Below are positions 5,199 to 35,672 of a DNA stretch of 35,672 nt, piece by piece. Location: the NCBI GenBank assembly GCA_029939135.1, contig JAOZTP010000003.1, forward strand, positions 1 to 35,672, read 5' to 3'. This stretch comes from Desulfobacterales bacterium. GTDB lineage: Bacteria; Desulfobacterota; Desulfobacteria; Desulfobacterales; JAFDMD01. The number at the start of each line of letters is the position of its first letter. Position 1 is the stretch's first letter. The notes below the pieces were generated by a model. That model had not been told where the DNA came from, searched no databases, and was given only the letters and a program-made list of their open reading frames with translations. Position numbers and translations under genes: made by a program.

Positions 5199-6158
5199 AT
5201 GAGAGTGCTTGTAATTACGGAACAAATAGACGGTATATTCAGAAAAGTCAGCTATGAGGCTTTAAGCGAAGGCAGACGAATAGCGGACGCTATGAATTGC
5301 GAAATGACGGCGGCAATACTCGGAAGCGGCATTGATAATCTTGCCGAAGATATAAAAAAATACGGGGCGGATAAAATAATACTTGCAGACGATCCCGCCC
5401 TTGCGGAATATATCACTGATAAATACGTACTAACCCTTGCGGATATAATAGAAAAAGAGAAACCGGAAGTTATAATACTCGGTTCTACAAGCATTGGAAA
5501 GGATATAGCGCCTCGTCTTTGCGCAAAATTCAACGGCGCAATAGCTACAGACTGCATAAGCGCTTCAATCGAAGAGGGCAAAGTCTGCGCCTCAAGATAC
5601 ATATACGGAGGCAAATTAATAACGGATGTAATATTAAACAGAAAACCTGCGTTTATTGCTTTAAGGGCAAACTCCGTATCGATTAAGGAGGCGGACGGCA
5701 AAGGAGAAATAGAAAAAATTCAAGCGAATATGCAGGATGCGTCCCTTACTTTTATAGAGAAAAAAATGGATGCAGGTAAAAAAGAGCTTACAGAGGCGGA
5801 TATTATAGTGGCGGGCGGCAGAGGCGTAAACGAAGGCGATTTTTCCGCTATAGAGGAGCTTTCCGAAATATTGCAAGGGGCGGTAGGGGCTTCAAGAGCG
5901 GCTGTGGACGAAGGATGGAGACCCCATTCGGATCAGGTGGGACAAACAGGCAAGGTGGTTTCTCCGAACCTTTATATAGCCTGCGGCATATCCGGCGCAA
6001 TACAGCACTTTGCAGGAATGGCGTCCTCTAAAGTTATAGCGGCTATAAACAAGGATGAAGAAGCGCCGATATTTGCTAAATCGGATTATGGCGTAGTAGG
6101 AGACCTGTCTAAAGTTATGCCAGAAGTAATCAAAGAGGTTAAAAAAATTAAAGGGTAA
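5199..6158 (+). CDS. etfA: Electron transfer flavoprotein alpha subunit
   Basis: C-terminal FAD domain GASRAAVDEGWRPHSDQVGQTGKVVSPNLYIACGISGAIQHFAGM. Confidence 0.96.
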   Translation: MRVLVITEQIDGIFRKVSYEALSEGRRIADAMNCEMTAAILGSGIDNLAEDIKKYGADKIILADDPALAEYITDKYVLTLADIIEKEKPEVIILGSTSIGKDIAPRLCAKFNGAIATDCISASIEEGKVCASRYIYGGKLITDVILNRKPAFIALRANSVSIKEADGKGEIEKIQANMQDASLTFIEKKMDAGKKELTEADIIVAGGRGVNEGDFSAIEELSEILQGAVGASRAAVDEGWRPHSDQVGQTGKVVSPNLYIACGISGAIQHFAGMASSKVIAAINKDEEAPIFAKSDYGVVGDLSKVMPEVIKEVKKIKG

Positions 6159-8564: not shown

Positions 8565-9881
8565 TCAATACATGAGATTCGGCAGCCATAAGACTATGTT
8601 CGGAAATATCATAAGCAATATTATGCCTACTATTACCGCGCATAAAAAGGGGATTATTCCTTTAAATATGGATTCTAAAGGGACTCCTCCTTTTATTACC
8701 TTTTGAGACACCCCGTAAACTACATAAACGTTGATACCTACGGGCGGGGTTATTACTCCCATTTCCGTTACCAAAACTATAATTATTCCGAACCAGATGG
8801 GGTCGTAACCCAGATTTTGCACTATAGGAAAAAAGATTGGTATGGTAAGCATTATTAAAGCAAGCGAATCCATAAAACATCCGCCGAGAAAGTATATTAT
8901 TATGATTAATCCAATTATCATATAGGAGGGGAGATCAAAGCCGCTTACCCAGTTTGCTATGTTAAAGGGTATTCTTGTAACCGCCAGAAATTTTCCGAAT
9001 ATAACTGCGCCTGCAACTAAGAATAGCACCATGCAAGAGGTTCTTATGGTTTCGTATAATGATTTCACAAAACCTTTCCATGTAATTTGACGTTTTATTA
9101 CGGATATTGCCAAAACCCCGAAGGCTCCTACGCCTGCGGCTTCGGTAGGGGTAAATAATCCCTTAAATAGTCCGCCCATAACCAGAATGAAAACCAAAAG
9201 AGTATCCGCCAGATTTTTTAAGGAGATTAGTTTTTGTTTTAAAGTGAATTTGTCTCCTTTTGGTCCTTGTTTCGGAGATACGGAACATGTAACGTATATG
9301 CATGTAATAAAAAGAAAGGTCAGCAGCAAAGCCGGAAATATTCCGGAAACAAATAAAGCGCCTATTGATTGCTCGGTTAGTATTCCATAGACTATTAGCA
9401 CTACGCTGGGAGGCATTATCATTCCGAGTCCGCCGCCGGCGGAAACGGAGCCTGCCGCAAGTCTGTTTGTGTAACCGTAGCGTTTCATTTCGGGCATTCC
9501 TACGGTAGCCATTGTAGCCGCTGTAGCGGGGCTTGATCCGCATACGGCTCCGAATGCGGTGCAAGAGCATACCGTAGCCATAGCAAGACCGCCTCTGATT
9601 GCTCCGAGAAATTTATAAGCTGTATCGTATAGCCTTCGACTTATGCCGCCGTTGAACGCAAATTGTCCCATTAGTATAAAAAGGGGGATTGTAGTAAGGT
9701 CGTAGGATGAAAATGCTGAGTATATTTCTCTTGAAAGCAGGTTTAGTCCGCCTTTAAAAGATATTAACAGGCTGAAACCTATAAAGCCTATTAAAGCCAT
9801 AACATAAGCTACGGGCATTTTGGTCATAAATATGGCAATCATTATAATTATGCCGATTATGCCGAGTAATGTGGGATCCAT
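8565..9881 (-). CDS. dctM: TRAP transporter large permease (DctM family)
   Basis: 438 aa, many TMs; SSPATAATMATVGMPEMKRYGY, GMIMPPSVVLIVYGILTEQSIGALF, FTPTEAAGVGAFG. Confidence 0.95.
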   Translation of the reverse strand: MDPTLLGIIGIIIMIAIFMTKMPVAYVMALIGFIGFSLLISFKGGLNLLSREIYSAFSSYDLTTIPLFILMGQFAFNGGISRRLYDTAYKFLGAIRGGLAMATVCSCTAFGAVCGSSPATAATMATVGMPEMKRYGYTNRLAAGSVSAGGGLGMIMPPSVVLIVYGILTEQSIGALFVSGIFPALLLTFLFITCIYVTCSVSPKQGPKGDKFTLKQKLISLKNLADTLLVFILVMGGLFKGLFTPTEAAGVGAFGVLAISVIKRQITWKGFVKSLYETIRTSCMVLFLVAGAVIFGKFLAVTRIPFNIANWVSGFDLPSYMIIGLIIIIYFLGGCFMDSLALIMLTIPIFFPIVQNLGYDPIWFGIIIVLVTEMGVITPPVGINVYVVYGVSQKVIKGGVPLESIFKGIIPFLCAVIVGIILLMIFPNIVLWLPNLMY

Positions 9882-18351: not shown

Positions 18352-18380
18352 TTGACAATAAATTAAGAATACTTGATAAT
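18352..18380 (+). promoter_or_regulatory. Sigma70-like promoter upstream of the giant S74 gene
   Basis: TTGACA - 17 nt - GATAAT. Confidence 0.65.
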
Positions 18381-18493
18381 TATGCAAAAGGATATTTTTT
18401 TGCTTCTCTTTGTTTGAGTTGACGCCTTTGATCTTGAATCGGAATCGTTTTATGAATTCGCATTAAAATTTTTTTTAAGGATTGGAGGATACT

Positions 18494-21400
18494 ATGAAGA
18501 AGTTCTTCATATGTTTCATAAGCATGCTGTTTATATTTTTATTATTTAACATATATGCCCAAGCTGCAAAAAATAACAATGAGAATAAAACGCCTTCATC
18601 CACAACGGATAAGCCGAAGCCCGAGCTGCCCTATTTGCCTAAAATCAAACCTTTAAAATCAAAGATTTTTAAAAAAACCTCTCTTGAAATAGCGGCGTTG
18701 AAAAAAGCGGCTATCTCCTATTATGAAGAAACAGGCGCATGGCCACTTGACGCTGAAAGACTTAAAGCTTTTGGTCTTAAAAAATGGAACGGCAAAAGCT
18801 CTTGGGGAACGCCGATAAGCTTTTATGTGAAAAACGGAGAGTTTATAATATCTAATAAAGTGCCAGATAATTTACATGCGGCTTTTGAGGGTTTCGGAAG
18901 AATTGAAAAAGATAAAAAAACAGGAAAAGTTAATATACATATTGCCCCGCCGAATTCGATTCAAATTAGAGACAACGCCAAATTATTCGAACAGGATATA
19001 ATTATAAGCAAATCCGAGCCTATATTACGCTTGGAAGACACAAATATATCCGATCTAAACTTAACGGACTCAAATATATCCGATTCTAACCTATCAGACG
19101 CTAATAATTCCTTATCTGTTTTTATTATGAATAAAAATGGGGAGTTGGTTTTTTTAGACAATAAAAAGCTCCCTAATATTCGGGTAAAACAGAAAGGAGA
19201 TGTAGAAATAAAAGGAAACTTAAGCGCGGTTTCCAATAGCATCCGATTAAAAAATATCGAAAACGAGGGTTCCTCTCTTATAGAGATGGCGGACGCCGCT
19301 AATAAATATAAAGCCGTATTAAGAGTCGGGGACAAATACAAAAATGATAAAGAAGAGGTAATACCGGAAGGTTTTCAGATGGGCACCATCTCGAAGCATC
19401 CGGTAACTATGCTTGTAAACAATTCCCCGCGCGTTATTATAGATGAAGAGAATTTAAGCTCTCCGAATATTAACGCCATTAATATTCACTCTGGCAATAT
19501 TGCCGCAGATAATATCAAAATAAATAAAACAATAAACGGCGAAGATATTACCAAGCTTCTTGACGGGCTTATAGTTTTAATCAACTCTAAAGAGTTGTCC
19601 GACATTGTTAATAGAAACGTAAAACTTATGACCGAAACAAATATAGAGGACTATGCAATATCCATAGCCGGAACAAAAGCGCTTGTAGGCGATATAATTC
19701 CGGCGATATCAAGCAAATATATTATAGGCTCTTCAGCCCGCTCCTTTAAAGCGGGATATTTTGACAGTCTATACATTTCAGGCTCCTCGCTTTATATGGA
19801 CGGAGTAAAAGTGCTAAGCTCGGAAGGAGCGATTTTAAACGGCGACATTTCCGGCACAGGCGTTAAAGCCGTTATTGACGAAAATAATCCGAGCGATGTT
19901 AAACTTGCTTCCGAAAAAGCGATTACAGATTATGTCCAAGAGAAAGTCGCAAACATATCAGGCATTCCGGGCAAACTTCAACTCGGAGGAGATTTTATAA
20001 CTACCGGAGATATGACGCTTAATGTTATGGGCGGCGGAACAACCGAAATTACCCTTCCGGTAACCGGAACTTTGGCTACTCGCGAGTGGACGCTGGCGCA
20101 AAATTTATCAGCTAATATTGCCTTGTCCGATTTAACAAACGTAGCCGATAATCTGCCAGATACGGCGGGCAATATGTTAATATGGGATAACAGCGGAATA
20201 TTGCAAAGCAAAGCTTTAACAAGAGACGTATCCGTAAATCAATATGGCGTCGCTACGGTTAATAGCATAGACGGCGAACCTATAACTTTAGGCGGAGCTT
20301 TTGAAACTGTTAATCCGATAAAATTAGAGGCTTCAAAGGATGTAACCGTTAAAATAGAAGACAGCGGAACTCTTGCCACGCAGGCTTATGTAGTTAGTCA
20401 AATAGTAGGTTCCAATATGTCGGCGGCTACTACGTTGGCAAGTCTTACGGATACGGACATAACCGCTTCCGACTCTTCCGGCGATATAATAATATGGGAT
20501 GCCGGCAGCAATACATGGATTAACAAAAAAATTTCGCAGGATGTTAGCTTGGAAAAGACAGGCGCTGCAACGGTTACAAGCATAGGCGGAAAATCTATAA
20601 GTTTGGAAGCGCCATTTAAAACTACCGGCGATAAAATTATAGAGTTAAAGGCTTCCGCTCAAAACGTCATGCTTACAATAGAGGATACCGGCATTGTTGC
20701 AACCAAAGGATATGTAACGGAACAGATGAAAGATGTTATGCCTAACGAGATAAGCTCTCCTGTTACCGGCAATCTCGTAATTTGGGACGGAGACAAAAAT
20801 AAGTGGGTTAATAATTCGCTTTATCAGGACGTTAGTTTGGAAAAGGACGGCAAGGCAACGGTTACGCACATAGGCGGCAAGACTATAAGTTTGGGAGCGG
20901 GATTTAAAACTAACGGAGCCGGCGGCAATATAGAATTAAACGCATCCGCTCCGGTATCCGTTGAAATACACAGAAGCGGAGTATTGGCTACCATTGACGA
21001 CATTAACGATTATATTATAGCCGCAGGCGAGGCTGCGAGATTAGAAGATCTTACGGATGTCGCCATAACTACTTCCGGCGTTTCCGGCGATATAATAATA
21101 TGGGATGCCATAAGCAATAAATGGGTTAACAAAAAAGTTTATCAGGATGTTGAGTTGGCAAAAGACGGCAAAGCGACGGTTACGCACATAGGCGGCAAGT
21201 CTATAAGTTTGGGAGCGGGATTTAAAACTAATTGGGGCGGCAATATAGAATTGAACGCATCCGCTCCGGTATCCGTTGTAATAACAGACAGCGGGACACT
21301 TGCCACTAAAGAATATGTCGATAAAGAAATATTTGCCGCAAGCGGATCCGCCAAATTAAAAGATTTATCGGATACGGTTATTTCTGATACAATAAGCGCC

Positions 21401-24400
21401 GGCGATTTATTAATATGGGACGGTTCGTCCGAATGGGTTAGCCGATCAATATCCGGCGATATTAATTTGGATGCGGGCGGAGCCGCAATCATAAGCAAAA
21501 TAGGCGACAAGCCTATAAGTTTGGAGGCGGAATTTAAAACTACCGGCGGAGGCAATATAGAGTTGAAAACTCCTAATACTTCTCCGGTATCAGTCGAAAT
21601 AAGAGACAGCGGAATTCTTTCTACAAGAACCTATGTTGACAAGCAGATACTTGCGGCAAACAGAGCCGCAACATTGGCAAACCTATTAGATGCCAATATT
21701 AGCTCCCCTATTGGAGGCAACATATTAATATGGGACAGCGTCAGACAGCAATGGGCAAACCGAAAAATGATGGGAGATGCCTCTTTAGAAGCAAACGGAG
21801 CAATAGAGGTGGCTAAAATAAAAGGGAAAAGTATTACTTTGGGAGGGACTTTTGAAACTTCGGACGCTATAAAATTAAACGCCCCGAATTCAGTAATAAT
21901 AGACATACCCAAAAGCGGCACATTAGCCACAATCGCAGACGTCGATAGATACATAGAAGCGGCAAACAGTTCGGCTACTTTGGGTAATCTTATAGATACA
22001 AATATTTCCGACGCTATAGCTTCCGGCGATATGCTTTTATGGAATGACATGGAAGAGCAATGGTATAATAAGTCGATAACCGGAGACGCTTCTATAGATA
22101 AAGACGGAAATACCACGGTTACCAGCTTAAAGTCTGGGACAATAGAATTCAACTCTGCAAATCCGGTTAATATCGAAATAGTCAAAAGCGGAGAGATGGC
22201 TACGCTTGCAGACATAGATATAAGTTTAGAGGCGGCAAACAGATCTGCCACTTTGGAGAATCTTATAGATACAAACATTTCCGGCTCTATAGCTTCCGGC
22301 GATATGCTTTTATGGAATAATATAGAAAAACAATGGTATAATAGGCAGATAATCGGAGACGCTTCTATAGATAAAGACGGAAATATTACCGTTAACAGCC
22401 TTAGAGCGGGAATGGTAGAATTTAACGCGTCTTCGCCGATCAGCATTGAGATAACCAAGAGCGGAAGGCTTGCAAGAATGGAAGATTTGGACGCCTACAT
22501 AATAGCGGCAAACGCTACCGCTACATTATCGAATCTTGTAGATACCGATATAAATTTGGCTGCTGCGGGCAATATTGTAATATGGGACGATAGCGCCGAA
22601 AAATGGATTAATAAAGGGCTTTCGCAAGATGTAACCATAGATAAAGGCGGTGTAGCCACAGTTCATAGTATAAACAACAAGCCTGTAAGTTTGGGAGCCG
22701 GTTTTAGTACCGACGGAGAAGGAACAATAGAATTCAAAGCATCCTCGCCCGTATCAATTGAAATAAAAAATAGCGGGGTATTGGCTACGCAGGATTATAT
22801 AGCAGGACAAATAGAGGCTGCAAATAAGGCGGCGGAACTTAGACATCTTGTCGATACCAATATTTCCAATACGCCGGTTAACGCTGATATATTAGTATGG
22901 GACAACAACCAGTGGTTTAACCGCTCAATAAGCGGCGATATTGTTTTAAATAAAACCGGCGAAGTTACTATAAGTAAGGTGGGCGGCGAGTCTATAAGTT
23001 TGGGGGGCGGTTTTCAGACCACAGGCGACGGAACAATCATTCTCGGCGGACCCGTTGAAAGCAGCGAATCCGTGAATGTAATAATAGAGGATAGCGGAGT
23101 ATTAGCTACAAAAGATTATGTCAGCGAAATGATGATCGCCGCAAACAATTCGGCTACTTTGGAAAACCTTACGGATACCGAAATTTCGGATACAATAGCT
23201 TCTCGAGATATATTAATGTGGGACGGAGCTAAATGGGTTAGCCGTAGCGTATCCGGCGATATTCAGTTGGCGGCGGACGGCGGTTCCGAAGTGAAACGTA
23301 TAGGCGGAATGAATGTTGATTTAAGCGGACATTTTGCAACTACAGGCGCGGGAACCATCACATTAAACAATCCGGCGACCAAAGATATATCCGTCAACAT
23401 AAACAAAACCGGCACGGTGGCAATGGTAGATGATCTTAATAACTACATAGGAAATGCGATCGGCGAGGCGCAGTTAAACAAGCTTACGGATACCAACATT
23501 TCGGACGCAATACCTTTGGAGTCCGGAAATATATTGGTATGGGAGGATAACGATCAAAAATGGTTTAATCGCAAAGTTTCCGGCGACGTTAGTTTGGCGG
23601 CAAGCGGCGAGATTATCATAAACAAAGTAGCGGGTAAATCTATAAGCTTGGGAGCCGACTTTAAAACTCCCGGCGCGGGACAAATTGAGTTGAACGCATC
23701 TTCGCCGGTATCAATCAAAATAGCGGAGAGCGGAATAATGGCGACGCAAAATTATGTAAACGCCAGAATAAACGATTCCGGCACGCTTAAAACCCTTATA
23801 GATACCGAAATTTCGGATACAATAGTTTCTCGAGATATATTAATGTGGGACGGAACTAAATGGGTTGACCGTAGCATATCCGGCGATATTCAGCTCACCC
23901 AAGAAGGCAAAGCTACAGTAAGAACGTTAGACGGCGTTTTTATTAATCTGGGCGCCGCTTTCGAGACAAGAGGACCCGGCGCCATCAATATAACCGCTCC
24001 CTTGAATGTGGCGGTTACAATGGATGAAAGCGGAATATTAGCCACTAAAAATTATATTGCCGAACAAATAGATGAGGTTAATAATTCCGGCACATTGAGC
24101 AACCTTAACGATATACAGCTTGCATCGGAAGGGGTTATGATAAACGGAAGTTTATTAATTTGGGATAACGTTCAGAAAAAATGGTTTGATAGAGAGATCG
24201 GACTCGATGCAAGCCTTACAGAAGACGGCAGGCTAACCGTTAAAAGCATAGGCGGAAAATCTATTAGTTTGGGCGGCGAACTTAATACATCAGGCGGAAA
24301 ATTTATTACAAACGGCGGAGATATTACTTTTAACGCCGAAGGCCCCACAATTTTAACATTGCCTACAACCGGCACATTAGCTACTAAGGAGTATGTGGAC

Positions 24401-26269
24401 GATAAAGATCACGCTCTGGCATCTTTGTCGAACGTAATAATAGATAGCGTAAACGATGGCTCAATATTAGTATGGGATGTGGACGGAGGAGCCGACGGAA
24501 CCGGAGTTTGGAAAAGCAAGTCTTTAAGCGGAGACGGCTCTGTTGACGCCGAGGGAAAACTTACCATAACCCACATAGGCGGACAGCCTATAAATTTAGG
24601 AGGCGAATTTAGAACTGCCGGCAAATTTATTACATACGGCGGCGATATAAGATTACGCGCAACAAGCGGCTACGCGGATCTGATTTTGCCTCAAAGCGGA
24701 ACTTTGGCTACGTTAGATAATATAACCGATATGATAAGAGCCTCTAATTTAACCGATTTAAATGACGTTGATCTTGACTACGACACGTTAGAGGGCGGAC
24801 AAATTTTAGTTTGGGACGCCGCCGTTGCTAAATGGAGAAATAAAGGCTTAACAGGAGATATAAGTTTAAACAACTCCGACGGAAATGCAACCGTTAAAAG
24901 CATAGGCGGGCATCCGGTTACATTAGGAGGCAATTTTACCACTGACGGCAACCTAACCTTTAACGTTGCCGGTGGCGAAGCAACTCTTACCCTTCCCGTA
25001 GAGGGAGTTTTGGCTACGCTTAAAGGAAACGAAACTTTTTTTAATAAAATAATAAAAGATAGCAACGCCAGTTTCAATAAGCTTTCATTAGATTTTGAGG
25101 ATAACAAATACGGAGATAAGAGTTTTGACGAAAATGAAACCGAAAGATGGGTTATGACCTTAAAAGATCAAAACGGAACAGCAGAATGGAGAAGAGCTAC
25201 CGATATAGGCGCCGTTTGGGTGGCGGGAAAAGATTCGCAGTATGAGGAGTTGGCATATTATGACGATAATAAAACGGATAATAGAAGTTTAGGCATAGGA
25301 TTCAGTTTTAATCTGATAAACGAAGACGAATCCCCCTACCCTGTAAGAGATAATCAGAGTTTTGATATTTCCGAAACAGGAGATGAAGATACTATTTTAG
25401 ATTATCAGCTTTATGTGGGCAGAAAAGAGCCTCTTGGAGGCAGCATATATGCTTACGGACATATAATGGCTAAAGATTATTATGAATTCAGCGACGAACG
25501 CTTAAAAGAAAACATCGCAAGCATATCTTCTTACGCGCCTATAATGGATAAAATAAGAAATATAGAAGGGGTTTATTACGATTGGAATTCCTTATATTAT
25601 GATAAGAATAAAATAAATAAAAAGCAAAGACGCCAAATAGGATTTATAGCGCAGCAATTGGAAAAAGAATTTCCGGAACTTGTTCAAACCGAAACAGACG
25701 GTTTTAAATCGGTTACATATTCAAAATTCGTTCCGGTGCTTTTAGAAGGCATAAAAGAATTAGATAGGCAGATTAATCATAGAGAAAATTCCATTTTTAT
25801 AGATCCGGACGGAAATATAAACCTTAAAGGAATCGTAAAAATAGACAATATCGCTATTATAGATAAAAAAGGAAATATTGCCGCAAACAACCTTAAAGTA
25901 AAAGAGGATATCCAAACATCCAATACCTTCTCGATACTTCGGTCCGATACGCTATCGGCTTTAATTGCAGTTTCAACCGAAAAAAGAGCGAATAAAAAGG
26001 TAGAGGGTTATATCTCGGCAAAAGACATATACATTGCGGATAAAGACAGATGGGCTTCCGAATTCGATTCTAGGATAAAAATCGTTTCCGAAACTCCGGA
26101 GGATACAAGCTGCTCCGCCGAAAACGTCGGGGAGATGCGTTTCGTTTCAAAAGATTCAACCCTGTGCATATGCGACGAAAAAGGGAGTTGGTTAAAATTT
26201 AATACATCCGAAAAGGAAAAAAAGCTTGCCGCTTCGACTCCGATAGATATTGACGCTTTTTTCGATTAA
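18494..26269 (+). CDS. Giant secreted repeat protein with C-terminal peptidase S74 intramolecular chaperone domain (tail-fibre-like)
   Basis: Signal peptide MKKFFICFISMLFIFLLFNIYAQA; ~16 repeats with GDILIWD...KW.NRSISGDV and SGTLATKDYV; S74 motif FSDERLKENI ... IGFIAQQLEKEFPELV ... VTYSKFVPVLLEGIKEL. ORF track uses TTG 18482; ATG 18494 follows GGAGG. Confidence 0.9.
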   Translation: MKKFFICFISMLFIFLLFNIYAQAAKNNNENKTPSSTTDKPKPELPYLPKIKPLKSKIFKKTSLEIAALKKAAISYYEETGAWPLDAERLKAFGLKKWNGKSSWGTPISFYVKNGEFIISNKVPDNLHAAFEGFGRIEKDKKTGKVNIHIAPPNSIQIRDNAKLFEQDIIISKSEPILRLEDTNISDLNLTDSNISDSNLSDANNSLSVFIMNKNGELVFLDNKKLPNIRVKQKGDVEIKGNLSAVSNSIRLKNIENEGSSLIEMADAANKYKAVLRVGDKYKNDKEEVIPEGFQMGTISKHPVTMLVNNSPRVIIDEENLSSPNINAINIHSGNIAADNIKINKTINGEDITKLLDGLIVLINSKELSDIVNRNVKLMTETNIEDYAISIAGTKALVGDIIPAISSKYIIGSSARSFKAGYFDSLYISGSSLYMDGVKVLSSEGAILNGDISGTGVKAVIDENNPSDVKLASEKAITDYVQEKVANISGIPGKLQLGGDFITTGDMTLNVMGGGTTEITLPVTGTLATREWTLAQNLSANIALSDLTNVADNLPDTAGNMLIWDNSGILQSKALTRDVSVNQYGVATVNSIDGEPITLGGAFETVNPIKLEASKDVTVKIEDSGTLATQAYVVSQIVGSNMSAATTLASLTDTDITASDSSGDIIIWDAGSNTWINKKISQDVSLEKTGAATVTSIGGKSISLEAPFKTTGDKIIELKASAQNVMLTIEDTGIVATKGYVTEQMKDVMPNEISSPVTGNLVIWDGDKNKWVNNSLYQDVSLEKDGKATVTHIGGKTISLGAGFKTNGAGGNIELNASAPVSVEIHRSGVLATIDDINDYIIAAGEAARLEDLTDVAITTSGVSGDIIIWDAISNKWVNKKVYQDVELAKDGKATVTHIGGKSISLGAGFKTNWGGNIELNASAPVSVVITDSGTLATKEYVDKEIFAASGSAKLKDLSDTVISDTISAGDLLIWDGSSEWVSRSISGDINLDAGGAAIISKIGDKPISLEAEFKTTGGGNIELKTPNTSPVSVEIRDSGILSTRTYVDKQILAANRAATLANLLDANISSPIGGNILIWDSVRQQWANRKMMGDASLEANGAIEVAKIKGKSITLGGTFETSDAIKLNAPNSVIIDIPKSGTLATIADVDRYIEAANSSATLGNLIDTNISDAIASGDMLLWNDMEEQWYNKSITGDASIDKDGNTTVTSLKSGTIEFNSANPVNIEIVKSGEMATLADIDISLEAANRSATLENLIDTNISGSIASGDMLLWNNIEKQWYNRQIIGDASIDKDGNITVNSLRAGMVEFNASSPISIEITKSGRLARMEDLDAYIIAANATATLSNLVDTDINLAAAGNIVIWDDSAEKWINKGLSQDVTIDKGGVATVHSINNKPVSLGAGFSTDGEGTIEFKASSPVSIEIKNSGVLATQDYIAGQIEAANKAAELRHLVDTNISNTPVNADILVWDNNQWFNRSISGDIVLNKTGEVTISKVGGESISLGGGFQTTGDGTIILGGPVESSESVNVIIEDSGVLATKDYVSEMMIAANNSATLENLTDTEISDTIASRDILMWDGAKWVSRSVSGDIQLAADGGSEVKRIGGMNVDLSGHFATTGAGTITLNNPATKDISVNINKTGTVAMVDDLNNYIGNAIGEAQLNKLTDTNISDAIPLESGNILVWEDNDQKWFNRKVSGDVSLAASGEIIINKVAGKSISLGADFKTPGAGQIELNASSPVSIKIAESGIMATQNYVNARINDSGTLKTLIDTEISDTIVSRDILMWDGTKWVDRSISGDIQLTQEGKATVRTLDGVFINLGAAFETRGPGAINITAPLNVAVTMDESGILATKNYIAEQIDEVNNSGTLSNLNDIQLASEGVMINGSLLIWDNVQKKWFDREIGLDASLTEDGRLTVKSIGGKSISLGGELNTSGGKFITNGGDITFNAEGPTILTLPTTGTLATKEYVDDKDHALASLSNVIIDSVNDGSILVWDVDGGADGTGVWKSKSLSGDGSVDAEGKLTITHIGGQPINLGGEFRTAGKFITYGGDIRLRATSGYADLILPQSGTLATLDNITDMIRASNLTDLNDVDLDYDTLEGGQILVWDAAVAKWRNKGLTGDISLNNSDGNATVKSIGGHPVTLGGNFTTDGNLTFNVAGGEATLTLPVEGVLATLKGNETFFNKIIKDSNASFNKLSLDFEDNKYGDKSFDENETERWVMTLKDQNGTAEWRRATDIGAVWVAGKDSQYEELAYYDDNKTDNRSLGIGFSFNLINEDESPYPVRDNQSFDISETGDEDTILDYQLYVGRKEPLGGSIYAYGHIMAKDYYEFSDERLKENIASISSYAPIMDKIRNIEGVYYDWNSLYYDKNKINKKQRRQIGFIAQQLEKEFPELVQTETDGFKSVTYSKFVPVLLEGIKELDRQINHRENSIFIDPDGNINLKGIVKIDNIAIIDKKGNIAANNLKVKEDIQTSNTFSILRSDTLSALIAVSTEKRANKKVEGYISAKDIYIADKDRWASEFDSRIKIVSETPEDTSCSAENVGEMRFVSKDSTLCICDEKGSWLKFNTSEKEKKLAASTPIDIDAFFD
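19973..25035 (+). repeat. ~16 degenerate tandem in-frame repeats of roughly 90-110 codons
   Basis: Recurring LTDT.IS...GDILIWD...W.NRSISGDVSL...G...V..IGGKSISLG..F.T.G.G.IEL.....PVSV.I..SG.LAT.DYV...I.AAN. Confidence 0.9.
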
Positions 26270-26343: not shown

Positions 26344-26799
26344 ATGAAAAAAATAGTAATAATCAACGGACCAAACCTTAATATGCTCGGCAAAAGAGAG
26401 CCGAATATATACGGAAACGCAACCCTTGAGCAGATAAACGCAGAACTTTGCGCAATAGGAAAAGAAAAAAAAGTATCCGTTGAAACCTTTCAATCAAATC
26501 ATGAAGGGGCGATAATAGATAAGATACAGGAAGTATCGGATAAATGCGCCGGATTAATAATAAACCCCGGCGCATTTACCCATACAAGCATAGCCATAAG
26601 AGACGCTCTTCTGCTTATTCAGGCTCCCATAATAGAGGTTCATCTTTCAAACATATACAAAAGAGAAGCCTTCCGTCATAAATCTACAATATCCGATATT
26701 GCAGCCGGAAAAATAACAGGCTTTGGAGCGGCAGGATATTTCTTTGCCTTAAAAACCCTTATAGCCGAAATGTCCGTTAAAAACGGTTATAATGAATAA
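26344..26799 (+). CDS. aroQ: Type II 3-dehydroquinate dehydratase
   Basis: INGPNLNMLGKREPNIYG, FQSNHEGAIIDKIQ, INPGAFTHTSIAIRDAL, EVHLSNIYKREAFRHKS. Confidence 0.97.
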   Translation: MKKIVIINGPNLNMLGKREPNIYGNATLEQINAELCAIGKEKKVSVETFQSNHEGAIIDKIQEVSDKCAGLIINPGAFTHTSIAIRDALLLIQAPIIEVHLSNIYKREAFRHKSTISDIAAGKITGFGAAGYFFALKTLIAEMSVKNGYNE

Positions 26800-29624: not shown

Positions 29625-30257
29625 ATGAGCGAAACTCAGAAAGTTTCCGCCTCCGATAATAAAAAAAAAGATGCGGGCGGTACTACAATTTTGTTTTTTT
29701 TGATAGGCGTTGCAATAAGCCTTGCCCTCGGATGGATCATATTTCCGAAACTCCTTTACTCTAAAAAAAGTCAGCCTATAGATTTTAGCCATGTCGTGCA
29801 TAGCGAGGCTGTGGGCGATTGCGACAGTTGTCATTTTTTTCGAGAAGACGGAACATTTTCGGGTGCTCCTACGCTTGCCGAATGTATAGATTGTCATGAA
29901 GAGGCGCAAGGGGATACCGAAGATGAAAGAATATTTGTAGAGGAGTATGTCGCTCAGAACAAAGAGGTTCCATGGCTTATATATTCGGAACAGCCGGACT
30001 CCGTTTTCTTTTCTCATGCCGCTCATGTTAAAAAAGCGAAAATGTCTTGCGAAAGCTGCCATGGCGAAATTGGAACATCCGACGCCTTGCCGATTTACGA
30101 GGAAAATAGAATTACGGGTTACAGTCGTAATATATGGGGCAAAAATATAGCCGGAATTAAAAAGCATACATGGGACCGTATGAAAATGAACGACTGCGGC
30201 GAGTGTCATGAAGAAGAGATCGGCGATAAAGGCTCCTGTTTTCAGTGTCATAAATAG
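29625..30257 (+). CDS. qrcA: Membrane-anchored multihaem cytochrome c, QrcA-like
   Basis: N-terminal TM anchor; five CxxCH motifs (CDSCH, CIDCH, CESCH, CGECH, CFQCH); first gene of a four-subunit cluster. Confidence 0.8.
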   Translation: MSETQKVSASDNKKKDAGGTTILFFLIGVAISLALGWIIFPKLLYSKKSQPIDFSHVVHSEAVGDCDSCHFFREDGTFSGAPTLAECIDCHEEAQGDTEDERIFVEEYVAQNKEVPWLIYSEQPDSVFFSHAAHVKKAKMSCESCHGEIGTSDALPIYEENRITGYSRNIWGKNIAGIKKHTWDRMKMNDCGECHEEEIGDKGSCFQCHK

Positions 30258-30300
30258 GTTATAGTATTTGACTTGAAAGTTATACGCGAGGAAGATTTTT

Positions 30301-32508
30301 ATGAAGATAGACAGACGAAGTTTTTTATCGCTTGGAGCGGGCGCAACCGCGGGGCTTGCATTTTCGCCGCTTCCTTGGAAATTAATGGACGATTCGTCAA
30401 TATGGACGCAGAATTGGCCTTGGGTTCCGGTTCCTACGGACGGAGAGGCGAGTTATGTAGATACGGTATGCTCCCTTTGTCCGGGAGGCTGTGGAATTAC
30501 CATAAGAAAGATAGACGATAGAGTAGTTAAGGCGGAAAAGAAAGATAGCGATAACGCTAACTCTGGCATTTGCATTTTGGGGCTTTCATCTCCTCAACTT
30601 CTTTACAGTCCTTCCCGTATAAAAACTCCTTTAAAAAAGATTGAAGGCAAATGGGTTAAAATAAGCGTAAAAGAGGCGGTTGCCGAAATTGCGGAAAAGC
30701 TTAAAGATTTACGAAAAGACAAATTGTCTCATACTTTGGCTTGCATTTCTGGCTCCTCTTCGGGAACGGTTCCGGCTCTTTTTGAAAGATTTCTTAAAGC
30801 TTACGGATCGCCTAATTTTATAACGGTTCCTTCGGTTAAAGATGTTTATAAGCTTGTTTTTTCTTTGTCTCTCGGTTCGCCTTATGTTCCCGTATTTGAT
30901 ATTGCAAACTCCGATTTTGTAGTAAGTTTCGGGACCGGACTTTTAGACGGATGGGGAAATCCGGCTCAAGCATTTAAAGCCCATAGTATTTTAAAGGATA
31001 ATAAGAAAAAATTAATTCAGATAGAGGCGCGTCTTTCCAATACCGCCGCAAAAGCGGATAAATGGATACCTATAAAGCCGGGCACCGAAGGGGTTTTGGC
31101 GTTGGGCATGGCGAATATAATAATTGAAAAACGGCTTTATCTTAATAAAAATATTTTATTCGATAGCGTTACCGAGGGTTTTGAAGAATTTAAAGCCCTT
31201 GTAGCAAAAGATTATTCGGTTAAAGCGGTCGCCGAAATAACAGGCGTAAAACAGGAAGATATAACCGCTTTGGTGGAAGATTTTATGAAGGCTCAAAGCC
31301 CTGTCGCATTATTCGGCAGAGGCGAAGGCACTATACCAGGAAGCCTGCATGAAATGATGGCGGTAAACTTTTTAAATGCGCTTGCAGGCAACTTTAATAA
31401 AGCAGGAGGCGTTCATCTTCTTTCGGATAATAGCTATATTAATTGGACAGAGCCTATTTTAGACGATACGGCTTATTATGGCATAAACAAAAAAAGATTA
31501 GACGGCGCCGGAGACGGAAAATACTTTTTGGCAAAACATCTTTTAAATCGCCTGCCGGAAGTTCTTAATTCTTCCGAAACCTCTCCGATAAACATGCTTT
31601 TTGTAACGGATTCAAATCCGTTTTATACTATGGCGGATACAAAACTTGTTCGGGAGGCATTCGAGAAAATACCGTTTATAGTATCCTTTTCATCTTATAT
31701 GGACGAAACCGCATCTATGGCGGATATTATTTTGCCAAATCATTTCTTTTTGGAACGTTATCAAGACGTAGTCGCTACATGCGGGCTTAAACCTGCGGTA
31801 GGGCTATCCAAACCTGTAGTTAATCCTATTTTTGACACAATTCATTCTGGAGACGCCGTAATATTTATTGCAAAGGCTTTGGGCGGAACCATAGCCGAGT
31901 CTTTTGCTTGGGATGATTACAAGGCTTGTCTTGACGAAACGTTAGAGGCAAAAAAAGATATTATGGATAAAGAGCTTTTCTGGGTAGACGAAAGCGGAGT
32001 TTTTAACGCTTTTGCCGACGCCGAAAGCTCCGGAAAGTTTGAATTTATAAACGATAAAATCAGACAAACAAAGCCTTATACCTTTGTTGAAGCCGAAGGG
32101 GAAAAGAAGCAATATCCTCTTACCCTTATCCGATTCGATTCAATGAGAATCGCATCCGGTTACACGGCTAATTCCCCTTTTATGACAAAAACGGTAGCCG
32201 ATACAGTCATTAAAGAGAATGATATTTTTGTAGAGATTAATCCGAAAACGGCGGCGGAATATAATCTAACCGACGGAAGTAAGGCTCTTTTGACCACTCC
32301 CAAGGGAAAGGCTCAAGTTAGAGTTCATCTTTACGAAGGCATAATGCAGGGTATTATATCAATGCCGAGCGGACTTGGACATTCCGGCTATGATAACTAT
32401 TTGGCGGGTAAAGGTATAAATATTAATGAACTTATCGGGCAAATCGAAGATCCTGCATCCGGTTTTGATGCCGCATGGGGAATCCGAGCGGTATTGGTTC
32501 GTGTCTGA
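30301..32508 (+). CDS. qrcB: Molybdopterin-oxidoreductase-family subunit, QrcB-like
   Basis: Tat-like DRRSFLSLGAGATAG; CSLCPGGCGITIRKIDDRVVKAE...GICILG; ADIILPNHFFLERYQD. Confidence 0.8.
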   Translation: MKIDRRSFLSLGAGATAGLAFSPLPWKLMDDSSIWTQNWPWVPVPTDGEASYVDTVCSLCPGGCGITIRKIDDRVVKAEKKDSDNANSGICILGLSSPQLLYSPSRIKTPLKKIEGKWVKISVKEAVAEIAEKLKDLRKDKLSHTLACISGSSSGTVPALFERFLKAYGSPNFITVPSVKDVYKLVFSLSLGSPYVPVFDIANSDFVVSFGTGLLDGWGNPAQAFKAHSILKDNKKKLIQIEARLSNTAAKADKWIPIKPGTEGVLALGMANIIIEKRLYLNKNILFDSVTEGFEEFKALVAKDYSVKAVAEITGVKQEDITALVEDFMKAQSPVALFGRGEGTIPGSLHEMMAVNFLNALAGNFNKAGGVHLLSDNSYINWTEPILDDTAYYGINKKRLDGAGDGKYFLAKHLLNRLPEVLNSSETSPINMLFVTDSNPFYTMADTKLVREAFEKIPFIVSFSSYMDETASMADIILPNHFFLERYQDVVATCGLKPAVGLSKPVVNPIFDTIHSGDAVIFIAKALGGTIAESFAWDDYKACLDETLEAKKDIMDKELFWVDESGVFNAFADAESSGKFEFINDKIRQTKPYTFVEAEGEKKQYPLTLIRFDSMRIASGYTANSPFMTKTVADTVIKENDIFVEINPKTAAEYNLTDGSKALLTTPKGKAQVRVHLYEGIMQGIISMPSGLGHSGYDNYLAGKGININELIGQIEDPASGFDAAWGIRAVLVRV

Positions 32509-32535
32509 AATATTATTTAATCTATTGAGGTAGTA

Positions 32536-33312
32536 ATGAGTAAAGGATCTAAACATAAAGATAAAAAATTCGGAATGGTCATTGATCTTGATAAATGCAC
32601 CGGTTGCGGCGCCTGTATGGTCGCCTGTATGTCCGAAAATAACGTGCCCTTTAAAGAGAATGAATCCAACAAATTAGATTCTATAACTTGGATGAGGGTT
32701 TATAAATTGGAAAACGGCAAATCTTTTCCTGATGCGGATATTTGCTTTTTACCGAGACCATGTATGCACTGCGAAGGGGATCACGGGCATGCCCCATGCG
32801 TTTCTGTCTGCCCCGCCATTGCTACCGATTATGATCATAAGACCGGAATTGTAAGCCAAATATATACAAGATGCTTTGGCTGCCGATATTGTATGGCGGC
32901 TTGTCCTTATCATGCTCGCTATTTTAATTGGTGGGATCCTGTATGGCCGGAAGGCATGGAAAAGTTGTTAAACCCGAATGTTTCTCCTCGTATGCGCGGA
33001 GTAGTTGAAAAATGTAGTTTCTGCCATCATAGGTATCAACTTGCGCTTGATAAGGCTTATGCGGACGGCAGAGATAAGATAGAAGAGGATGAATATCAGA
33101 CTGCATGCACTCAAGCCTGCCCCGCAAATGCAATAATTTTCGGAGACTTGGATAATAAAAAGCATGCAGTTTACAGCTTAAAAAAGAATCCTAATACTTT
33201 TAGGCTTCTTGAAAGACTCGGAACCAACCCGAAAGTATATTATCATTCAAGTAGAGAATGGGTTCGAAGAGCGGGCGATAATTATTTAAAACATGAAACT
33301 ACAAAGGCATAG
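32536..33312 (+). CDS. qrcC: 4Fe-4S ferredoxin-type subunit, QrcC-like
   Basis: CTGCGACMVAC, CMHCEGDHGHAPCVSVCP, CFGCRYCMAACPYHARYFNW, CSFCHHR, CTQACPANAI. Confidence 0.88.
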   Translation: MSKGSKHKDKKFGMVIDLDKCTGCGACMVACMSENNVPFKENESNKLDSITWMRVYKLENGKSFPDADICFLPRPCMHCEGDHGHAPCVSVCPAIATDYDHKTGIVSQIYTRCFGCRYCMAACPYHARYFNWWDPVWPEGMEKLLNPNVSPRMRGVVEKCSFCHHRYQLALDKAYADGRDKIEEDEYQTACTQACPANAIIFGDLDNKKHAVYSLKKNPNTFRLLERLGTNPKVYYHSSREWVRRAGDNYLKHETTKA

Positions 33313-33385
33313 CCGCTGCATTTTATAAATTAAATAAAGTAAAAATTTTATAATATATTATGAAAATATTAGGAGCATAAGGTCT

Positions 33386-34624
33386 ATGGATTCGGCATTA
33401 ATACCCAAAGGAGTTAAACGTTGTTCGTTAGGACGGTTTTCATTATGGATGATAGCGCTTACCGCCATTCTGTTGTGGGGCGTTATTGCCATGCTTTTAT
33501 GCTGGTTTAAAGGACTTAATCAGACTAATATGAATGATGCTTACGGTTTTGCATTATGGATATGGGCTGATTTGGCGGTTATTGCTTTGGGCGGCGGAGC
33601 TTTTTTTACAGGTTTTTTAAAATATATAGTCGGTAAAGACGAACTTAAAAATATTATCAATTATGCGGTTGTAATAGGGGTTGTCTGCTATGTTTCCGCT
33701 TTATTGATATTGGCTATAGACGTAGGGCAGCCTTTAAGAAGCTGGTTTATCTTTTGGCATGCAAATGTTCATTCTATGCTTACGGAAGTTGCTTTTTGTC
33801 TTTCCTGCTATCTTGTGGTTCTTATTATCGAGTTTTTGCCACTGTTATTTGAAAATCCCAAATTGGATAGAAAACCTTTTTTCCATCATTTAAGCCATAA
33901 CATGCATGAAATAATGGCTATATTTGCCGCTACCGGAGCCTTTTTATCTTTTTTCCATCAAGGTTCCTTGGGCGGAGTATCTGGCGTTCTTTTCGGACGC
34001 CCCTTTGCTTTTAGAGAAGGATTATTTATTTGGCCTTGGACATTCTTCCTATTTACTTGGTCTGCGGCGGCATGCGGTCCCTGTTTTACCATTTTAATTA
34101 CTCGCATAACCGAAAAAATAGCGAAGAAAAAGTTGGTAAAAGATAATGTTATAGATCTTCTTGCCAAAATATCCGGTTGGATGCTCGGTACATACATTAT
34201 AGCGAAAATATTCGACACATGGTATTGGGCGGCATATACTCTTCCGAAACAAGGATTTTCTTTAATCGATTTTTATTCCAATAATCCTTTTTACGGAATA
34301 TGGATATTAATTGTCGAAATATTCGTATGCGGCATTATTCCCGCCGTAATACTTATAAGCTCCAAAGGGCGCAAAAATAAGAGATTATTTATGACGGCAA
34401 TAATTCTTGCGGTTATCGGAGTTTGTATAAACAGATGGGTTATGGTGATGCAAACTATGGCGGCGCCGGTAATGACATTTGAAGACTGGTTTATGTATTA
34501 CCCAAGCTGGCAAGAGGTGGCGACTACAATTTTACCTGTTGCTTTTGGCGCTATTTTTATATCTTTTGCATACAGATATTTACCTATATTTCCACAGGAA
34601 AGCGAATTAAATCCAATAGATTAA
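33386..34624 (+). CDS. qrcD: NrfD/PsrC-family integral membrane subunit, QrcD-like
   Basis: 412 aa polytopic protein; SHNMHEIMAIFAATGAFLSFFHQGSLGG; follows the FeS subunit. Confidence 0.85.
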   Translation: MDSALIPKGVKRCSLGRFSLWMIALTAILLWGVIAMLLCWFKGLNQTNMNDAYGFALWIWADLAVIALGGGAFFTGFLKYIVGKDELKNIINYAVVIGVVCYVSALLILAIDVGQPLRSWFIFWHANVHSMLTEVAFCLSCYLVVLIIEFLPLLFENPKLDRKPFFHHLSHNMHEIMAIFAATGAFLSFFHQGSLGGVSGVLFGRPFAFREGLFIWPWTFFLFTWSAAACGPCFTILITRITEKIAKKKLVKDNVIDLLAKISGWMLGTYIIAKIFDTWYWAAYTLPKQGFSLIDFYSNNPFYGIWILIVEIFVCGIIPAVILISSKGRKNKRLFMTAIILAVIGVCINRWVMVMQTMAAPVMTFEDWFMYYPSWQEVATTILPVAFGAIFISFAYRYLPIFPQESELNPID

Positions 34625-35039: not shown

Positions 35040-35672
35040 ATGACTTTTAATATTTTAAATGGGAGATTATATAACGGCTTTTATATAGGAGATAGACAAA
35101 TAGTCGTTTGCCAGCTTGCAAAAAGCAGAAAAGGCTTTAGTCTTAAAAAAATTCTTTTTTTTGAAATAGAGCCGGAACTTATAGATAGAAAAGGAGTTAT
35201 AACGGAGCCGACGCGTTTGGCTTATCTGATAAAAAAAGGGTTTTCCGATAATAATTTCAAACCTAAAAAAGCGGCGTTAAGTTTGGGGGGATTTTTTGTA
35301 AGCTTTAAAAAAGTATTAATAGAAAACCCTTTGGATACTGATTTGAAAAAGCGGGTATTTGCGGAAGCGCAAAAGCATATTCCTTTTGATTTAAAAGAGG
35401 CTTATTTTGATTTTAATATGTTAGAAACAGGCGATAACAAAGGGAAAGCAAAAGAGGCTCTGATTGTTGCGGCAAAAAAGGATATTGTAGATTCTTATAT
35501 TCTGCTTTTAAAAAAAATATCGGTTGAGCCTACGGTTATAGACGTTGATATTTTTGCTTTATATAATGCTTATATATTAAATTACGGAATATCGGATAGA
35601 ATAATTCTTCTTATGGATATTAATTATAAAAGAACTCTTTTTATTATTATAAAAGGTAAATATCCTTTATGT
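35040..35672 (+). CDS. pilM: PilM-like type IV pilus assembly ATPase, truncated by the window end
   Basis: ATG at 35040, open to the end; HIPFDLKEAYFDFNMLE, EALIVAAKKDIVDSYILLLKKISVEPTVIDVDIFALYNAYILNYG; not in the ORF track. Confidence 0.7.
   Translation, partial: MTFNILNGRLYNGFYIGDRQIVVCQLAKSRKGFSLKKILFFEIEPELIDRKGVITEPTRLAYLIKKGFSDNNFKPKKAALSLGGFFVSFKKVLIENPLDTDLKKRVFAEAQKHIPFDLKEAYFDFNMLETGDNKGKAKEALIVAAKKDIVDSYILLLKKISVEPTVIDVDIFALYNAYILNYGISDRIILLMDINYKRTLFIIIKGKYPLC

Follow-up and report, generated by a model that had tools for sequence, protein, structure and literature searches.

A giant S74-domain protein, probably a cell-encoded surface fibre, at a conserved housekeeping locus in a genus of Desulfobacterales

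The stretch of DNA analyzed here (the window) is an entire contig of 35,672 nucleotides from the draft genome of an uncultured Desulfobacterales bacterium (2.05 Mb in 204 contigs), and it carries a giant fibre gene at positions 18494 to 26269 of the forward strand, the strand of all features described below. The gene was recognized by its reading frame, by Pfam, and by orthologues in two relatives (L012/L019 and L011/L020); its 7.8-kb frame is single, as reported in an initial annotation, and intact. Measured between stop codons it spans 2,596 codons, and it may start at a TTG at 18482 or at an ATG at 18494; counted from the ATG, which has a GGAGG ribosome-binding site on its 5' side (18484 to 18488, with GGAG kept in relatives), the product has 2,591 amino acids. 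The promoter-like sequence ascribed to the gene was located as a sigma-70-like TTGACA-17-GATAAT at 18352 to 18380 (11 of 12 matches); such a site is expected by chance in a single sequence of this region, but both hexamers are unchanged across three species of the genus. The leader of about 110 nt between this site and the ATG (18381 to 18493) is strongly conserved in the same three species.

The third-position GC content (GC3) of the fibre gene, 0.39, lies inside the range of its neighbors (0.33 to 0.40). Ten window proteins were scanned with Pfam: eight belong to cellular families, two have no family, and none belongs to a phage family, in keeping with the earlier observation that no other phage genes are present. 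The description of the gene as standing alone among housekeeping genes holds for the flanks but not for the isolation, as aroQ (type II dehydroquinase; 26344 to 26799; PF01220, E 4e-60), a conserved downstream neighbor, follows closely. The gap between the two genes is 74 nt in the window and 3 nt in L012, the genes overlap in L011, and no terminator was found between them; with a gap so small or absent and no terminator, the fibre gene and aroQ may be cotranscribed. Farther downstream, at 29625 to 34624, translations and one Pfam scan revealed a row of multihaem-cytochrome-like, molybdopterin oxidoreductase, ferredoxin, and NrfD-like genes that resembles the Qrc complex of sulfate reducers. 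The contig ends in pilM (35043 to 35672), and the corresponding region of L011 (10043 to 13222) runs on into genes read as pilN, pilO, pilP, and pilQ.

The predicted protein opens with a putative Sec-type signal peptide, called by eye at residues 1 to 23 (AQA|A; 18494 to 18562). Residues 1 to 25 are the sole hydrophobic segment of the chain, and an A-x-A motif comes after them in each of the three species, in keeping with the signal peptide proposed initially. An N-terminal domain of about 110 residues (amino acids 55 to 166; 18656 to 18991) is 85 to 92% identical within the genus and has no relevant match in Pfam, NCBIfam, or the PDB. Among 396 genomes of the phylum, relatives of this domain were found in the source genome only, barring two matches in G273 and G430 that we judged to be chance, the open frames there reading as unrelated proteins. 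A fibre-like neck (amino acids 167 to 539; 18992 to 20110), read from the sequence, contains one partial repeat at residues 484 to 531; AlphaFold2 modeled residues 24 to 470 with a pLDDT of 28.9.

The bulk of the chain consists of 16 tandem repeats of 90 to 113 residues (about 105; amino acids 540 to 2187; 20111 to 25054), with starts from residue 540 to residue 2083 and a mean pairwise identity of 39%. In leave-one-out profiles the repeats scored 73 to 133 bits each; when each repeat was shuffled 200 times, the top-scoring shuffle reached 4.9 to 13.4 bits. The real scores thus lie well above chance, and the estimate of about 16 degenerate repeats stands. Neighboring repeats are the most alike (R7/R8, 64%; R3/R4, 61%), which suggests that the array grew by local duplication. 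The repeats are weakly similar to phage families of unknown function (E about 4e-7), matched nothing in 50,697 phage records, and, as a profile across 297 phylum genomes, matched the source genome alone. Pfam matches to HZS_alpha and PIF1 within the repeats were below the cutoff, covered short stretches, and were rejected.

Behind the repeats lies a segment placed before the S74 domain (amino acids 2188 to 2332; 25055 to 25489), the probable fibre tip; dN/dS over residues 2171 to 2332 is about 0.21. The S74 intramolecular chaperone/protease follows at residues 2333 to 2434 (25490 to 25795). A Pfam profile search corroborated its identification: PF13884 (Peptidase_S74) matches residues 2333 to 2397 with an E value of 1.1e-14 and 54.8 bits, against a curated cutoff of 22 bits; phage structural families in PHROGs match at the same position, and there are weak PDB matches to 8jov and 6f45. 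The catalytic motif SDERLK (25490 to 25507) begins with the serine codon at 25490, as first noted; this residue, the putative nucleophile, is Ser2333 in ATG numbering and Ser2337 in the TTG numbering used earlier. Ser2333 and its partner Lys2338 are both present and are invariant in the three species. Their spacing (serine, +5) is identical to that of S911/K916 in endoNF and S587/K592 in MyRF, two pairs that are equivalent; in MyRF, S587A and K592A each abolish cutting (PMC8326128). By profile and dyad, the protein is thus classed as an S74/ICA protein. The same Ser-Lys pattern occurs in S74 proteins from other sampled bacteria, but because the motif used to select these proteins demanded that pattern, it is not independent evidence. 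An AlphaFold2 monomer of residues 2130 to 2591 reached a pLDDT of 33.8.

The chain does not end with the S74 domain: a tail of 157 residues (amino acids 2435 to 2591; 25796 to 26266) lies beyond the S74 coiled coil, close to the 160 or so residues estimated at the outset. The tail is 79 to 82% identical within the genus, with a dN/dS of 0.28, has no transmembrane segment, and holds every cysteine of the mature protein, in a cap with the pattern C..G.mRF.....LCIC...G.WLKF (26105 to 26200) whose cysteines (Cys2540, Cys2558, and Cys2560) are invariant in the three species. From the serine to the end there are 259 residues, compared with 101 to 168 in the other S74 loci read, except for L047 with 291; an extension behind S74 is therefore uncommon, not unique. 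A tail profile run across 297 phylum genomes matched only the source genome.

Searches of related genomes identified the fibre gene at the same site in two further species of the genus, in genomes G002 (L019 and L012) and G001 (L020 and L011). In both, the gene is interrupted by contig ends within the repeats; the upstream half has argJ and a gene for DNA alkylation repair as its neighbors, aroQ lies beside the downstream half, and since these flanking genes are those of the window, we infer that the halves form one gene. The fibre gene thus occupies one site, with the same two neighbors, in three species. The N-terminal 520 residues have one match per genome in the three genomes. Repeats of G002 pair one to one and in order with those of the window at both ends, and repeats of G001 are rearranged, its second being closest to R3 and its third to R14. 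Near the contig end in L011 (positions 1 to 420) the frame breaks within the repeats, which may be an assembly error or a real frameshift. Beside the conserved locus in G002, behind aroQ and a nitroreductase gene (L012, 4305 to 8406), integrase/recombinase-like and restriction-modification-like genes replace the Qrc-like genes, a rearrangement. The fibre gene is under purifying selection, with dN/dS between 0.15 and 0.49 across its parts: 0.17 to 0.24 for the N-terminal 520 residues, 0.31 to 0.49 for the last repeats, and 0.15 for S74, the most constrained part; the values for aroQ are 0.10 to 0.24.

Of 297 phylum genomes, 24 gave a match to S74, the next longest S74 frame being 842 amino acids; S74 domains also occur on plasmids, as in Aureibacter, Hymenobacter, and Bacteroides. 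Other bacterial proteins labeled "tail fiber domain-containing" share the S74 domain with the giant fibre protein but do not exceed 842 residues in our sample, and no other genome of that sample has its repeats, its N-domain, or its tail. On one Patescibacteria contig (L013), two short secreted-looking proteins are encoded at 5327 to 5923 and 9200 to 9769, one with an S74 domain and the other with the same motif start, SDIRLKEN.

The closest known kind is the S74 group of mosaic adhesive trimer (MAT) proteins of the predator Bdellovibrio, which have been observed at the cell surface (Caulton et al. 2024, PMC10769870). Bd3182, a member of this group, has a signal peptide, a trimeric beta-helix tip, and an S74 domain with self-cleavage at S782, which the S782A change prevents; a fibre of about 550 Å arises from its 922-residue precursor (PMC10769870). 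Cell encoding, a signal peptide and a fibre (both predicted for the giant protein), and an S74 domain with an SDxxxK dyad are common to both, and the conserved N-terminal domain of the MATs (about 130 residues, beta rich) can be likened by description to the 112-residue stretch reported here. MATs are typically about 1,000 residues long, with 21 paralogues, 13 of which end in S74 (PMC10769870), whereas the giant fibre is the product of the one S74 gene in its genome, is 2,591 residues long, and has 16 tandem repeats and 157 residues behind S74; the MAT trait of many paralogues with different tips was not found. Most likely the giant fibre works like a MAT fibre, and it is a possible member of the MAT family. 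The earlier suggestion of an undescribed system was therefore too strong, since bacterial S74 surface-adhesin fibres have already been described in Bdellovibrio (PMC10769870); judged from sequence, what is new is the size, tandem repeats confined to the genus among the sampled genomes, an N-domain with no recognized family, and the conserved stretch that follows S74.

We suggest that the gene is probably a cell gene for a Sec-secreted, phage-fibre-like, homotrimeric, and self-cutting surface adhesin fibre. The signal-like N terminus would direct Sec secretion of the chain; three chains would then wind into one long beta-structured fibre, with the N-domain toward the cell and the 16 repeats as the shaft. 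The S74 domain, acting as an intramolecular chaperone, would align the C termini in register and then, through the Ser2333-Lys2338 dyad, cut the chain before Ser2333. Cleavage would expose residues 2188 to 2332 as a tip able to bind a surface or another cell, and the released piece of 259 residues would comprise the chaperone and the conserved cysteine-bearing tail. Trimerization and self-cleavage are attributed here by analogy with the S74 family, and surface display, adhesion, and the fate of the tail are likewise presumed. Extrapolation from Bd3182 (PMC10769870) and T4-type fibres would give a fibre about 140 to 170 nm long. Points against this scheme are that the tail fits poorly if the released piece is a chaperone only, that both AlphaFold2 models scored too low to be used, and that no outer-membrane anchor or exporter for the fibre was identified; GspG (T2SSG pseudopilin) was not found in G000, G001, or G002 and was present in 17 of 17 other relatives searched, and the genus has two secretins, one PilQ and one lipoprotein secretin.

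That the cell itself encodes such a fibre is supported by the S74 homology and dyad and by the housekeeping flanks, and the retention of one site in three species together with the lack of phage neighbors makes it the best reading. The S74 domain and the repeats do resemble phage proteins: in phage fibres and spikes such as endosialidase NF, the T5 L-shaped fibre, and the S16 long tail fibre (6f45), an S74 domain with a Ser-Lys dyad also follows an upstream fibre. Yet a phage or prophage tail-fibre gene, whether live, remnant, or recently captured, that serves virus particles is very unlikely, given the signal-like N terminus, the nonviral locus held in the same slot in three species under purifying selection, and repeats that are absent from the phage records. 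Phage tail fibres are assembled in the cytoplasm and, to our knowledge, carry no signal peptide. Nor was a contractile phage sheath found in the three genomes with one Pfam family, by which divergent sheaths of extracellular contractile injection systems (eCIS) may be missed. S74 domains are known from the fibres of some eCIS (PMC12923769), but with no sheath of the phage type, a signal-like N terminus, and a locus devoid of eCIS genes, a receptor-binding fibre for an eCIS encoded elsewhere in the genome is extremely improbable.

Other alternatives concern the two ends of the protein. The S74 domain might no longer cut, or might not mark the fibre end, so that the whole protein would form one fibre with S74 as an internal trimerizing joint and the cysteine-bearing tail as the true tip. 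The long stretch behind Ser2333 and the selection acting on a tail that holds all the mature cysteines favor this arrangement. Among known proteins, MyRF has an internal S74/ICA domain, a further part behind it, and the dyad at the same spacing (PMC8326128); it differs in being a eukaryotic membrane-bound transcription factor, and the tail of the giant fibre has no transmembrane segment. The invariance of both catalytic residues, in the most constrained part of the gene, is as expected for an active protease, and we regard the S74-as-joint arrangement as unlikely. At the other end, the N-domain could be a pilin- or pseudopilin-like module by which the fibre docks onto the machinery of a type IV pilus: its helix is followed by G-x-[WY]-P ... 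WG-x-P, reminiscent of GspG, and pilM lies at about 35.0 kb of the same contig, with pilMNOPQ in L011 and the two secretins noted above. An hhalign comparison of the N-domain with GspG pseudopilins gave a marginal P value of 0.03, with 3 of 50 shuffled profiles scoring higher. Set against this, the protein has no prepilin leader, its N-domain has no Pfam or PDB match, and pilM is about 9 kb away with other genes between; a pilus-linked adhesin is thus decidedly unlikely. Somewhat speculatively, the protein could represent a distinct class of surface fibre, presented through a database-new N-domain. S74 would then serve as a processing joint inside the chain, and self-cleavage would yield two products, the very long fibre and a conserved cysteine-bearing piece that has a function of its own, perhaps as a cap that remains bound or as a released ligand; we hold this only tentatively.

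In summary, a giant cell-encoded adhesin fibre remains our preferred reading, and the finding indicates that a phage-fibre architecture with a self-processing chaperone has been kept as a stable cell gene beyond Bdellovibrio, in a much larger form. The conserved part behind S74 raises the question of whether the released piece is waste or a second product.
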